This document shows, one piece after another, positions 32,804-56,897 of a stretch of 64,000 nt of DNA. The DNA is from Zobellia barbeyronii (GTDB lineage: Bacteria > Bacteroidota > Bacteroidia > Flavobacteriales > Flavobacteriaceae), in assembly GCF_018603515.1 (NCBI RefSeq), contig NZ_JACATN010000004.1:62001-126000 (forward strand), given 5' to 3'. The notes beneath the pieces were generated by a model, which did no database searches, was not told the origin of the DNA, and saw only the letters and a list, made by a program, of their open reading frames with translations. Each line of letters opens with the position of its first letter. Positions within the stretch are counted from its first letter, which is position 1. Made by a program: the position numbers and the translations under genes.

Positions 32804-32822
32804 ACCCCAAAAAATATAGGGG
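32804..32822 (+). promoter_or_regulatory. Candidate nitrogen operator, site 1 of glnK
   Basis: ACCCCAAAAAATATAGGGG. Inverted C and G runs are separated by an AT-rich core. Its start is 89 bases before the start of the -7 box. Function is inferred from its match to elements beside glutamine synthetase. Confidence 0.45.
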
Positions 32823-32857
32823 GTAATATTCCTATAAACATAAAAATTACTTCTTAG

Positions 32858-32876
32858 ACCCCAAAATTTTGAGGGT
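32858..32876 (+). promoter_or_regulatory. Candidate nitrogen operator, site 2 of glnK
   Basis: ACCCCAAAATTTTGAGGGT, 54 bases (about five helical turns) after site 1. It covers the -33 TTTG (32868-32871), so a bound protein would meet RNA polymerase directly. Confidence 0.45.
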
Positions 32877-32900
32877 GTTAATTAATTTAACATACATTTG
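32868..32900 (+). promoter_or_regulatory. Promoter of glnK-amtB
   Basis: TTTG at 32868-32871, 21 bases, TACATTTG at 32893-32900, 23 bases before the glnK ATG. An exact match to the Bacteroidota consensus. Confidence 0.7.
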
Positions 32901-32923
32901 CTTCTCTAATTAATACAATACTT

Positions 32924-33262
32924 ATGAAACAAATCGAGGCAATTATTAGAAAATCTAAGTTTGATGAAGTTAAAAAGGCACTACATCAGATAGAGGTTAA
33001 CTTCTTCAGTTACTGGGATGTAACCGGAGTAGGAAATGAAAAACAAGGTCATGTATATAGAGGTATCTCTTATAGCACGAGCGACATTCAAAGAAGATAC
33101 CTTTCTATAGTAGTATCTGATGAATTTGCACAACGTACTGTTGACACCATTCTCGAAGCAGCTTACACTGGTAATGTTGGAGATGGGAAAATCTTTGTTT
33201 CTGAAATTTTAGAAGCATACAGAATCCGTACAAAAGAAAACGGACAATCTGGAATCAACTAA
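32924..33262 (+). CDS. P-II nitrogen regulatory protein (GlnK-type)
   Basis: 112-residue trimeric signal protein that binds ATP/ADP and 2-oxoglutarate and blocks AmtB. The T-loop reads GHVYRGISYSTSDIQRRYL, with Tyr45 and Tyr50 at the places of E. coli Tyr46 and Tyr51 (the uridylylation site), so the loop is one residue shorter before it. TGNVGDGKIFV is the conserved B-loop and the C-loop ends EAYRIRT. It is directly upstream of amtB (27 bases), the classical glnK-amtB pair, which supports this job. No GlnD gene is in the window, so uridylylation is unproved. Confidence 0.93.
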   Translation: MKQIEAIIRKSKFDEVKKALHQIEVNFFSYWDVTGVGNEKQGHVYRGISYSTSDIQRRYLSIVVSDEFAQRTVDTILEAAYTGNVGDGKIFVSEILEAYRIRTKENGQSGIN

Positions 33263-33289: not shown

Positions 33290-34528
33290 ATGGACGCAGG
33301 ATTATTTACAGCAAATAACGTTTGGATGATGTTGGCTACCGCCTTGGTATTCTTCATGCACACCGGGTTTTCTTTTTTGGAAATCGGCCTTACAAGACAA
33401 AAAAATACAATAAACATATTATTTAAGAACATCTTTATTATTACAGGTGGACTTTTACTTTACTACGCATGGGGCTTTAACCTTATGTACCCAGGATTTG
33501 AAGAAGGTTCTTCTGGAATTATAAAATTCTCAATGGATAGCTTTGGAATATCAGCTCCTGAAAACGGAATGACTCCAGAATATGCAGATGGAGGTTACAC
33601 ATGGTGGACAGACTTCTTGTTTCAAGGTATGTTCGCAGCTACAGCAGCTACTATTGTATCTGGTGCCGTTGCAGAACGTATTAAAATTGGAGCCTTTATG
33701 ATTTTCACAGTTATTTACGTAGGTCTTGTTTATCCTATTGTAGGCGCTTGGAAATGGGGTGGTGGTTTCTTAGACTCATGGGGTTTTTATGATTTCGCAG
33801 GTTCTACATTAGTTCACTCTGTAGGAGGTTGGGCAGCATTGGTTGCTATCTTCTTATTAGGTTCACGTATTGGTAAATTTGACGAAGATGGTAAGGCTAA
33901 AGCTATACCTGGTCACAGTATTCCAATGGCAACAGCAGGTGTACTTATCCTATGGTTAGGATGGTTTGGATTTAACGGTGGCTCTGTACTATCAGCTGAT
34001 CCAGAATTAACTTCTCTAGTATTGGTAACTACAAGTTTAGCTGCTGCTGCAGGTGGTTTTGGAGCTATGATTCTATCTACCGTATTATACAAGAATTTAG
34101 ATTTAACTATGTTCCTTAACGGTATTCTAGGTGGTCTAGTAGGTATAACGGCTGGCGCTGACCTTATGTCTCCCAACGAAGCGGTAGTAATTGGCTTTTT
34201 AGCAGGTATACTAATTGTTTTTGCAGTTGCTTTAGTTGACAAAATGAAATTAGACGATCCTGTTGGTGCCGTTGCAGTTCACTTGGTATGTGGTATCTGG
34301 GGAACATTAGCAGTAGGTATCTTCGGAGCCAAAGCAGGCGGTGAGCAGTTCATGACGCAGTTATACGGTGTATTGATCGTAGGTGTATTCTGCGTAGTGT
34401 GCACATTTATTATCCTTGGAACCTTAAAAGCGGTAATGGGACTTAGAGTGAGCAAAGAAGAAGAGATCGAAGGTCTTGACATTCATGAACATGGTATGGA
34501 TGCTTACCCAGATTTCATAAACGATTAA
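33290..34528 (+). CDS. amtB: Ammonium transporter AmtB
   Basis: 412 residues, eleven hydrophobic helices. The opening MMLATALVFFMHTGFSFLE, the signature stretch QGMFAATAATIVSGAVAERI, and the twin pore histidines in LVHSVGGWAALV and AVHLVCGIWGTLAVG are intact. No signal peptide, as in many Bacteroidota Amts. It imports ammonium, gated by the P-II protein encoded just upstream. A hairpin follows the gene before the porin gene. Confidence 0.97.
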   Translation: MDAGLFTANNVWMMLATALVFFMHTGFSFLEIGLTRQKNTINILFKNIFIITGGLLLYYAWGFNLMYPGFEEGSSGIIKFSMDSFGISAPENGMTPEYADGGYTWWTDFLFQGMFAATAATIVSGAVAERIKIGAFMIFTVIYVGLVYPIVGAWKWGGGFLDSWGFYDFAGSTLVHSVGGWAALVAIFLLGSRIGKFDEDGKAKAIPGHSIPMATAGVLILWLGWFGFNGGSVLSADPELTSLVLVTTSLAAAAGGFGAMILSTVLYKNLDLTMFLNGILGGLVGITAGADLMSPNEAVVIGFLAGILIVFAVALVDKMKLDDPVGAVAVHLVCGIWGTLAVGIFGAKAGGEQFMTQLYGVLIVGVFCVVCTFIILGTLKAVMGLRVSKEEEIEGLDIHEHGMDAYPDFIND

Positions 34529-34642: not shown

Positions 34643-35725
34643 ATGAAAGCGATTACAAATACAAAATACGTAAAAAATCTATTTTTCCTAGCAATATTAC
34701 TTTTCTCTGCGACCGCTGTTGTTGCACAGGAAGAAGAAGAGGAAGAAACTAAACCATCATTTACTTTTACTGGTTCTGTTGATGCATACTACCGTGCCAA
34801 TCTAAACGGAGATAATTCTGCACCAGATGGTGCTCCAAACGCTGCGCCAGGTTCATCATTCGCCAACTTACCAGGTTTCTCTCTAGGTATGGCAAATTTT
34901 GTTGCAGGTTATGAAGGCGAAAAAGTTGGTTTCGTAGCAGATTTAGTATTTGGCCCAAGAGGAACGGATGCCATATTTGCTTCTCCAATTTATTCTGCAA
35001 CAGGTAATATTGTAAATCAATTATACGCATACTGGAATGTAAGTGACGCTGTTACCTTAACCTTTGGTAACTTCAATACTTTCTTAGGTTACGAGGTTAT
35101 ATCTCCGGTTGCTAACTTTAACTACAGTACTTCTTATTTATTCTCTTACGGTCCGTTTTCACACACTGGTTTAAAGGCTGATATTGCCTTATCAGATGAT
35201 TTTAGCTTAATGTTAGCAGTTATGAACCCAACTGATATGACCGAATTGAATGTTACCGGTAAATATACATACGGAGCTCAGATAGGATATAGCGGACAGT
35301 ATTTAAACCTATTGATTGATAACGGTGCTTACGAAGTTGATTATACAGGTGGATTTGATTTATCTGATTCTTTCTTCCTAGGATTGAACGCAGCTTATTT
35401 TGATGGTGACGGCGCAGGAAGCTTTGCTGGTGCAGCAATTTACCCTCAGTTAACAACTTCAGAAAACTTTGCTATTGGTCTTAGAGCAGAATATTTTGCT
35501 GAAACCGATGCTTTCGGTGCAATCGGAACTGACACCAATGCAGATCCAGACGCGAGCGTTTTTGCTGTTACTCTTACAGGAAGCGCAACAATAGGAAATT
35601 TAATAATCAAACCTGAACTTCGTTTAGATACGGCTTCAGATGATTCTGGATATTTTCTTGATAGCGACTTAATGGCACAAAAGAGCTTATCTTCTTTTGT
35701 ATTGGCCGCAGTCTACTCTTTCTAA
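34643..35725 (+). CDS. Outer-membrane beta-barrel porin (BBP2-like)
   Basis: 360 residues with a signal peptide ending VVAQ, an acidic mature N-terminus (EEEEEETKPS), then repeated amphipathic strands with aromatic ends (FTFTGSVDAYYRANL, FGNFNTFLGYEVI, and the closing strand SFVLAAVYSF, whose last residue Phe is the usual BAM signal). The pattern fits the bbp2/OmpL-like porin group. Placed 115 bases after amtB, it probably lets ammonium or amino compounds cross the outer membrane, but this is inferred from context. Confidence 0.8.
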   Translation: MKAITNTKYVKNLFFLAILLFSATAVVAQEEEEEETKPSFTFTGSVDAYYRANLNGDNSAPDGAPNAAPGSSFANLPGFSLGMANFVAGYEGEKVGFVADLVFGPRGTDAIFASPIYSATGNIVNQLYAYWNVSDAVTLTFGNFNTFLGYEVISPVANFNYSTSYLFSYGPFSHTGLKADIALSDDFSLMLAVMNPTDMTELNVTGKYTYGAQIGYSGQYLNLLIDNGAYEVDYTGGFDLSDSFFLGLNAAYFDGDGAGSFAGAAIYPQLTTSENFAIGLRAEYFAETDAFGAIGTDTNADPDASVFAVTLTGSATIGNLIIKPELRLDTASDDSGYFLDSDLMAQKSLSSFVLAAVYSF

Positions 35726-41910: not shown

Positions 41911-42357
41911 CTAAAAGGGATTCTTTCCTATTGGCGCACTTGATACTACGTTGGACAGTATAATGTGGGTACGCGTCTCACCATACTGAATTAGTTTATC
42001 TATAAATCGTTCCAAATGAAACTGGTCTTTTAACACAACCTCCATAACAATATTCTCATTCCCAGTGATACGATAACAATTCACCACTTCTTTATAGGTC
42101 TTAACGGTTTCTAAAAAAGGTTTTAGTTTACCCATAAAAGCTCTTAAAGTTATAATAGCTTTAAGATGATGTCCTGTTTTAGCATGCGAAACTTTTGTAT
42201 TATAACCTTCTATAATACCCAAGTCTTCCATCTTCTTTATACGTTCTGCAACAGCAGGTGCAGTAAGCCCTACCTGCCTACCAATATCCACATAGGTTTC
42301 GCGAGCATTTGCCTGAAGAAGTTTGAGTATTTTCCAGTTTAAATCGTCTATATTCAT
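41911..42357 (-). CDS. Lrp/AsnC family transcriptional regulator
   Basis: 148 residues. N-terminal AsnC-type HTH (NWKILKLLQANARETYVDIG, then GLTAPAVAERIKKMEDLG) and a C-terminal ligand-binding RAM domain (VVNCYRITGNENIVMEVV). Such regulators respond to amino acids; target unknown. The gene stands alone facing the unknown gene at 42484. Confidence 0.93.
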   Translation of the reverse strand: MNIDDLNWKILKLLQANARETYVDIGRQVGLTAPAVAERIKKMEDLGIIEGYNTKVSHAKTGHHLKAIITLRAFMGKLKPFLETVKTYKEVVNCYRITGNENIVMEVVLKDQFHLERFIDKLIQYGETRTHIILSNVVSSAPIGKNPF

Positions 42358-55751: not shown

Positions 55752-55770
55752 ACCCCATTAAAAATGGGGC
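55752..55770 (+). promoter_or_regulatory. Candidate nitrogen operator, upstream site of GSII
   Basis: ACCCCATTAAAAATGGGGC. CCCCATT and AATGGGG are perfect inverted repeats around AAA. It starts 87 bases before the GSII -7 box and about 83 bases from the GSIII start. Confidence 0.45.
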
Positions 55771-55802
55771 TATATTAAATTATACTCATTTTTTTCATAT
55801 TT

Positions 55803-55821
55803 ACCCCCCTAAAAATTAGTA
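55803..55821 (+). promoter_or_regulatory. Half-site of the candidate nitrogen operator before GSII
   Basis: ACCCCCCTAAAAATTAGTA has the ACCCC run and A-rich core but no closing GGG. It starts 51 bases after the full site and 36 bases before the -7 box. Confidence 0.35.
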
Positions 55822-55880
55822 TAATTCAGTAAAAAACATATTTTTGTTCGTCTTTAAATTTAAAATTAATTACCGTAATT

Positions 55881-56897
55881 ATGAGCAAAACTAAATTAGA
55901 GTACATCTGGTTGGATGGATATTTCCCCACACAGAACATGCGTAGCAAAACTAAAGTTGTAAACGATTTTGGTGGAAAATTAGAGGATTGCGATATGTGG
56001 TCTTTTGATGGAAGCTCAACAAGACAAGCCGAAGGCGGGTCTTCTGACTGTTTATTAAAACCAGTTGCTATATATCCAGATCCTGCACGTAGAGATGCCT
56101 TTTTAGTAATGACTGAGGTCTTAAATGCTGATGGTACTCCACACGTTTCAAACGGTAGAGCTGGTATTGATGACGATGATAATGATTTCTGGTTCGGTTT
56201 TGAACAAGAATACTTTATCATGGATACAAAAACACAACTTCCTTTAGGTTTCCCTATTGGTGGATACCCTGCTCCACAGGGAATGTACTACTGCTCTGTA
56301 GGTGGTTTACACACACACGGTAGAGAACTTGTTGAAAAGCACGCTGACCTTTGTATTGATGCTGGCTTAAATTTTGAAGGAATTAACCAAGAGGTTGCAT
56401 CTGGACAATGGGAATTTCAATTGTTCGCTAAAGGTGCTAAAAAAGCTGGTGATGAAATCTGGGTAGCTAGATACCTTTTAGATAGATTAACAGAACAATA
56501 TGGTTACTATATTGATTATCACCCAAAACCATTAGGTAAAGATATGGACTGGAACGGTTCTGGTATGCACGCTAACTTCTCTAACGAGGTTCTAAGAACA
56601 TGTGGTTCTAAAGAGACTTACGAGAAAATATGTGAAGCTTTCCGCCCAGTTGTAAAAGAACACATTGCAGTTTATGGTGAATTTAACGACCAACGTTTGA
56701 CTGGTCTTCACGAAACTGCTTCAATTACTGACTTTAGCTTTGGTATTTCTGATAGAGGTGCCTCTATCCGTATTCCAATTATTACAGTAGAGCAAGGCTG
56801 GAAAGGTTGGTTGGAAGATAGAAGACCTGCTTCTAACGGTGATCCATACAAGATTGCTGGTAGAATTATCAAAACAGTTAAATCTGCTAAGCTTTAA
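55881..56897 (+). CDS. Glutamine synthetase, type II (beta-grasp)
   Basis: 338 residues. N-terminal beta-grasp with MWSFDGSSTRQAEGGSSD, then the catalytic domain: FGFEQEYFIMD (metal Glu), GINQEVASGQWEFQ, WNGSGMHANFS and SFGISDRGASIRIP (the usual Asn of the NR motif is Asp here). This is the compact enzyme of the eukaryotic/actinobacterial type II group, present in many Flavobacteriaceae beside GSIII. It makes glutamine with ATP and ammonium. Promoter with a -7 box at 55839; strong terminator behind. Confidence 0.95.
   Translation: MSKTKLEYIWLDGYFPTQNMRSKTKVVNDFGGKLEDCDMWSFDGSSTRQAEGGSSDCLLKPVAIYPDPARRDAFLVMTEVLNADGTPHVSNGRAGIDDDDNDFWFGFEQEYFIMDTKTQLPLGFPIGGYPAPQGMYYCSVGGLHTHGRELVEKHADLCIDAGLNFEGINQEVASGQWEFQLFAKGAKKAGDEIWVARYLLDRLTEQYGYYIDYHPKPLGKDMDWNGSGMHANFSNEVLRTCGSKETYEKICEAFRPVVKEHIAVYGEFNDQRLTGLHETASITDFSFGISDRGASIRIPIITVEQGWKGWLEDRRPASNGDPYKIAGRIIKTVKSAKL

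Follow-up and report, generated by a model that had tools for sequence, protein, structure and literature searches.

A predicted paired operator at nitrogen-assimilation genes of Flavobacteriaceae and an AsnC/Lrp-type candidate for its regulator

In Bacillus, glutamine synthetase (GS) and ammonium uptake are controlled by TnrA and GlnR, proteins of the MerR type that recognise the dyad TGT-N11-ACA, and in Proteobacteria glnK-amtB and GS are controlled by NtrC with sigma-54. Tandem Crp promoters carry one site near -40 and a second about 52 bp further upstream. Lrp-type control is known for alanine dehydrogenase (by AldR) and for gltBD, and the Lrp consensus, YAG-HAWATTWTD-CTR, is like the operator described below an A/T-rich dyad with G/C flanks.

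The sites that we describe here resemble several of these systems in part. Compared with NtrC/sigma-54, a difference is the -7 box that stands at a fixed distance in the promoters here. The dyad has the geometry of the TnrA/GlnR operator with different bases: motif logos give CCC-N11-GGG and not TGTNA-N7-TNACA. The layout resembles that of tandem NtcA or Crp/Fnr promoters, whereas the motif differs. Unlike the sites of AsnC/Lrp proteins, the core here is CCC-N11-GGG, and it serves glnK-amtB, a porin and either GSII or GSIII. In Prevotella ruminicola, amtB is reported to rise 69-fold and glnK 46-fold on limiting ammonium, while other passages of the same paper tie amtB/glnK to non-limiting ammonium (PMC5552732); in the part of that text available, the terms 'promoter', 'binding site' and 'transcription factor' do not occur. 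For Flavobacteriaceae, no nitrogen regulator or operator is named among the matches listed in the open-licence literature (titles and starts of abstracts). A defined operator, a regulon and a candidate protein make nitrogen control in this large bacterial family directly testable.

We consider it probable that the two sites before GSII are an operator through which Flavobacteriaceae control a regulon for nitrogen assimilation, bound by a dimeric protein that would act as an activator. As far as sequence goes, operator and regulon are firm; binding, the direction of control and the signal are what we infer from them.

Paired sites before glnK and GSII

The window is the whole stretch of DNA analysed, 64,000 nucleotides of a contig of Zobellia barbeyronii. 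Its features at GSII are the following; sites were located by direct reading and a script, and the -7 box follows the TAnnTTTG consensus in the available part of PMC9723704.

53483..55669, minus strand: glutamine synthetase III (GSIII) gene, divergent from GSII (domain annotation of window genes)
55752..55770, no strand assigned: distal GSII operator, ACCC-N11-GGG dyad, window copy ACCCCATTAAAAATGGGGC
55803..55821, plus strand: proximal GSII operator, left half-site only (ACCCCCC)
55839..55846, plus strand: GSII -7 box TATTTTTG
55881..56897, plus strand: glutamine synthetase II (GSII) gene (PF00120/PF03951)

At glnK, with sites and -7 box again from direct reading and a script and genes from domain annotation, they are:

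32804..32822, no strand assigned: distal glnK operator, full dyad ACCCCAAAAAATATAGGGG
32840..32847, plus strand: ATAAAAAT, between both glnK sites, kept in glnK and porin promoters
32858..32876, no strand assigned: proximal glnK operator, full dyad ACCCCAAAATTTTGAGGGT
32893..32900, plus strand: glnK -7 box TACATTTG
32924..33262, plus strand: glnK (P-II) gene
33290..34528, plus strand: amtB gene (AmtB)
34643..35725, plus strand: BBP2 (OmpL-like) porin gene

The preliminary description of this DNA, made from the letters alone, had proposed one operator pattern at both loci, with a spacing agreement that chance could hardly produce. Its distances are exact: the GSII dyad and half-site start 87 and 36 bases before the -7 box, and the two glnK sites, both with CCC-N11-GGG spacing, start 89 and 35 bases before theirs. 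The perfect palindrome CCCC-N9-GGGG that it reported before GSII is also present, but on its own does not exceed chance within the window, where one copy was found against 0.18 expected and 15 of 100 shuffles reach that number. The case for the operator therefore rests on conservation. The two sites might otherwise be chance palindromes, as the weak statistics of the single copy would allow, or owe their conservation to something else, for instance the structure of the DNA or a hairpin in the RNA; the comparisons below make this reading very improbable.

What relatives in the family conserve is the core CCC-N11-GGG around an A/T-rich spacer, and the logos give a fuller form (A)CCC-N11-GGG(T), which the distal GSII site of the window fits with one mismatch in eight letters. 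The CCCC-N9-GGGG first reported is the window version on the same axis. A search for GSII in 60 family genomes yielded 30 loci, 28 of which carry ACCC-N11-GGGT upstream (six without mismatch, 20 with one and two with two of the eight letters), against 0/30 in a reversed control at up to one mismatch and 2/30 at two. At these loci a CCC half-site follows 50-53 bp after the dyad and, where a -7 box matches (24 loci), precedes that box by 33-37 bp. Two loci (L012 and L029) were excluded from the motif logo and scored as misses in the 28/30. Eight more promoters bring the total to 33 of 38 family promoters read; five of the eight have the site, and the GSII promoters of G002, G020 and G004 have none at up to two mismatches. 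Across the family, nearly every promoter with a strict -7 box has its distal and proximal sites 50-55 bp apart and a distance of 33-38 bp from the proximal site to that box. Palindrome and spacing, for which the preliminary description had looked to close relatives, are thus kept across Flavobacteriaceae.

At glnK, 15 of 30 loci have a pair of dyads directly upstream, 52-55 bp apart with at most three mismatches summed, and at others a porin or another gene stands between operator and glnK. In some relatives the porin is the first gene of the operon, behind the operator: among 18 regions we found 11 such operons (L126-L129 and L131-L137), with the pair before the porin in eight, one site in L132, none in L133 and a contig end at L135. 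A separate operon, L130 of genome G009, holds a second GSII copy (L012) behind porin and amtB, with a tandem operator before the porin.

The proximal site differs between promoters. Its GGG is complete in 1 of 31 GSII promoters, 15 of 25 glnK promoters and 11 of 14 porin promoters, so that the 'half-site' named in the preliminary description is a real property of GSII. The element ATAAAAAT between the sites of glnK and porin promoters is a plausible contact for the alpha subunits of polymerase.

Specificity of the arrangement and further targets

We searched for the whole arrangement as a pattern of dyad, 33-39, half-site, 32-38 and TTTG. Of 60 genomes, 29 contain it, with 47 matches in all, while the reversed control has eight. 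In 239 family genomes, a stricter form with an A/T spacer has 122 matches, spread over 92 genomes (the operators in G037 and G519 being counted twice, as they match on both strands), and none in the reversed control. The 4.98-Mb genome from which the window comes has exactly two matches, at glnK and at GSII, with none in the control. Of the 122 matches, 80 were fetched with their surroundings, the others lying in the first 60 genomes, which had partly been examined before. Seventy-seven of the 80 adjoin nitrogen genes: 31 stand at GSII, 25 at glnK, 14 at the porin, six on the gltB side and one at ald, with three lacking an assigned gene. Behind the porin there is amtB in all 14 cases, and glnK was seen in eight. 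Two of the gltB matches have a porin on their other side and one of the matches lacking an assigned gene has glnK there, as a tandem of dyads reads alike in either direction.

The numbers 122 and 0 bear out both the common pattern at glnK and GSII and the view that its spacing is hard to explain by chance, and with nearly all fetched matches at nitrogen genes they stand against an accidental origin. An RNA hairpin is opposed by the position of the sites, which lie upstream of the inferred start site and so would be absent from the transcript.

Single sites were a poor guide to targets. A scan of the source genome at up to two mismatches gave 568 matches against 612 in the control and was too noisy to use, and a scan of 60 genomes for ACCC-N-W9-N-GGGT rose only modestly above its control. 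The AraC-type genes of G000 and G011 also gave single sites, which were dropped since they lie inside conserved coding sequence (YPNFLRV). One single site stands before gyrB in G000.

Where no GSII match had been found, we turned to GSIII. In 22 such family genomes, the dyad lies upstream of GSIII in 14 at up to one mismatch (reversed control 0/22) and in 18 at up to two (control three). It is absent at that threshold from L212, L217, L219 and L220; L220 has CCC half-sites, and GSIII of L217 seems to follow closely on another gene. The predicted operator thus accompanies whichever glutamine synthetase is kept, and most of the GSII-less genomes that we read have it before GSIII. Four genomes gave the first instances of alanine dehydrogenase (ald) as a target. 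Taken together, the dyad, usually paired, stands before GSII, the glnK-amtB and porin-amtB operons, some ald genes, and GSIII in most of those genomes without GSII, which on sequence grounds defines the regulon.

Two arrangements may extend this list. In L241, L334 and L355, gltB and the BBP2 porin are divergent with a tandem operator between them, and GOGAT (gltB) may share that operator with the porin. In 11 of the 30 loci L001-L030, the centre of the distal GSII dyad is 98-102 bp away from a TAnnTTTG box that faces GSIII, and some of the remaining GSIII-facing boxes lie 36-38 or 62-63 bp from that centre. It is possible that the divergent GSIII also uses this dyad, at distances to its -7 box that vary.

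Helical phase and direction of control

The -7 box consensus TAnnTTTG is placed at -12 to -5 in the available part of PMC9723704, and this puts the proximal centre near -38 and the distal centre near -91; in the window, with the first T of the GSII -7 box taken as -12, the half-site is centred at about -39 and the dyad at about -90, and transcription would be expected to start near 55851 for GSII and, by the same count, near 32905 for glnK. Counted from the first T of each -7 box, dyad centres fall at 26-27, 36-38, 69, 77-80 and 90 bp, with one at 32 bp that is the sole out-of-phase site and comes from G009, a genome that has GSII too. At a period of 10.5 bp the vector strength R is 0.84 for 53 sites and likewise 0.84 when only the 17 GSIII sites are taken; among these are single sites displaced by roughly one turn, to 36-38 bp. 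Other periods score too, such as 13.25 bp (R 0.80 for the 53 sites), which gives 0.63 for the GSIII sites. The GSIII sites are the better test of phase because the second period scores lower there. Since the sites come from related, non-independent genomes, we attach no p-value to these figures.

These positions would allow a dimeric regulator to bind the two sites from the same side of the DNA helix, with centres near -38 and -91, and from there to help RNA polymerase at these promoters. Activation is likely on this basis, which is mainly that of helical phasing, and would most probably occur under nitrogen shortage, the signal suggested by the targets.

The preliminary description had reached activator dependence by another route, from the poor -33 element of GSII. 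Among 66 aligned promoters (29 GSII, 23 glnK and 14 porin), TTG at 17-29 bp before the -7 box indeed has a summed frequency of only 0.19 at GSII, and of 0.08 at glnK and 0.07 at the porin. In 135 other boxes taken as control, however, the corresponding sum is about 0.25. A -33 element is thus scarce in control promoters too, and its rarity at GSII says little about activation; the dependence itself is favoured by the phasing, and the direction of control stays an inferred one. The same aligned promoters show TAnnTTTG and no conserved GG/GC pair such as a -24/-12 promoter of sigma-54 would have, in an alignment anchored on the TAnnTTTG box. The sigma-54 genes of F. psychrophilum named in the available part of PMC9723704 belong to envelope stress, motility and exported proteins.

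The same operator could also serve a repressor released from the DNA under nitrogen shortage, with the proximal site blocking polymerase at the -33 region. Such a protein would find its proximal site covering the place of the -33 element, and sites near a promoter can also repress; AsnC/Lrp proteins, moreover, can activate or repress. We nevertheless regard repression as unlikely. The phasing, which extends to the displaced single sites of GSIII, is what proteins in contact with polymerase typically show, a distal site near -91 is too remote to fit simple blocking well, and the want of a conserved -33 element points weakly the same way.

Candidate regulators and reach beyond the family

Among the proteins tested, the best candidate for the proposed activator is an AsnC/Lrp-type protein that we call group A, although we put this forward tentatively, at somewhat under even chances. 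It has 150-157 amino acids in most genomes read, and its gene in the source genome is placed as follows:

G000:C32 near 740560, outside the window: group A gene of the source genome

Like E. coli AsnC/Lrp, group A has both domains of the family, with PF13404 (AsnC HTH) at 7.5e-14 and PF01037 (ligand domain) at 1.3e-19, both over the cut-off in the L489 copy, and its closest solved structure is E. coli AsnC (2cg4, E 2.1e-42). The copy of the source genome scores 151.5 bits with the AsnC equivalog NF008384, under the cut-off of 227.

AsnC/Lrp proteins were searched in 18 genomes, several of them only 80-91% complete, and compared as proteins; one fragment (L482) yielded no reading frame and was left out. 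All 11 genomes with sites (G000, G043, G046, G052, G494, G468, G506, G466, G008, G028 and G058) have group A, as do two of seven without: G004 and G020 have it, and G055, G022, G023, G002 and G035 do not. The one-sided Fisher value is 0.0025, or 0.0063 if G035, which has half-sites, is left out; both values ignore kinship and the several protein groups tried. Against group A stand G004 and G020, which have the protein yet no site at GSII or glnK. Two other AsnC/Lrp proteins were rejected. Group B is in 17 of the 18 genomes, with and without sites (it was not seen in G058, which is 80% complete), and for the window's own Lrp gene (41911-42357), between glnK and GSII, the only close relatives among the 18 genomes are in G028 and G046.

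The neighbourhood of group A was read in the best 80 of at least 587 loci in named genomes, the nearest being Zobellia amurskyensis at 98%. In 39 of these 80 loci ald lies within 3 kb. Of 23 ald promoters that could be judged, 13 have the operator at up to one mismatch, three (L496, L499 and L508) have the core CCC-N11-GGG with the outer letters off, and seven have none; the other 16 of the 39 linked loci were left out of this count as the upstream stretch was cut or the start not seen. In the loci read, group A typically follows saccharopine dehydrogenase and is itself followed by a Zn-peptidase and ald on the other strand. At the locus of Zobellia amurskyensis (L483) there is no ald. Further points against group A are that the neighbouring saccharopine-dehydrogenase gene may instead be its real target and that the stretches read upstream of group A contain no operator.

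The operator might instead be real and belong to a regulator of another family, for example the short MerR-type protein of 109 amino acids, a LysR protein or a response regulator, a reading that we hold to be a serious contender falling a little short of an even chance. The short MerR protein is found in 59 of 60 family genomes (30 copies were read as proteins), and a composite typed from its sequences has weak matches in the PDB that include TnrA and GlnR. That same breadth speaks against it: its occurrence in flavobacteria does not follow that of the sites, the protein being equally present in the site-free genomes G055, G022 and G023 and not found in G048 (82% complete), which has sites. 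It was set aside as the regulator. In the 30 copies read (L168-L197), the protein hardly varies.

A Crp/Fnr protein of the NtcA-like kind is likewise disfavoured, since it would be needed in every genome with sites. G052 (90% complete) has sites and no HTH_Crp_2 match, and G046, which has sites in a 1.9-Mb genome, has only a remnant of a Crp-type HTH with stops (L315); a Crp-type protein is present in the six others of the eight searched genomes with sites. Its presence leans toward genomes with sites (7/8 against 2/6 without; 0.063).

If group A is the regulator, Flavobacteriaceae, and perhaps Bacteroidota, would have an AsnC-type master regulator of nitrogen in place of NtrC, NtcA or GlnR, acting through one phased operator at whichever of GSII and GSIII is kept, with half-sites reaching GSIII of another order. 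We offer this wider proposal as a possibility that is slightly more doubtful than the candidate itself.

In a tandem scan of 295 genomes of the class, matches outside the family were mostly G/C-rich and chance-like, with one clear exception: in G199, which belongs to another order, GSIII is preceded by a pair of perfect dyads at a distance of 53 bp from each other. In 46 genomes of that order we obtained 30 GSIII loci (L275-L304), and 26 of them have an anchored GGGT within strongly conserved surroundings, AGGGGGTGTTRATAAAAA. The arrangement there is GGGGTGTTRATAAA, then CCC 35-37 bp on; this half-site is found in 16 of the 26, and in 15 of those 16 a -7 box follows 14-18 bp later. These look like the same half-sites moved by about two helical turns relative to Flavobacteriaceae, and would be consistent with the same regulator acting in that order.
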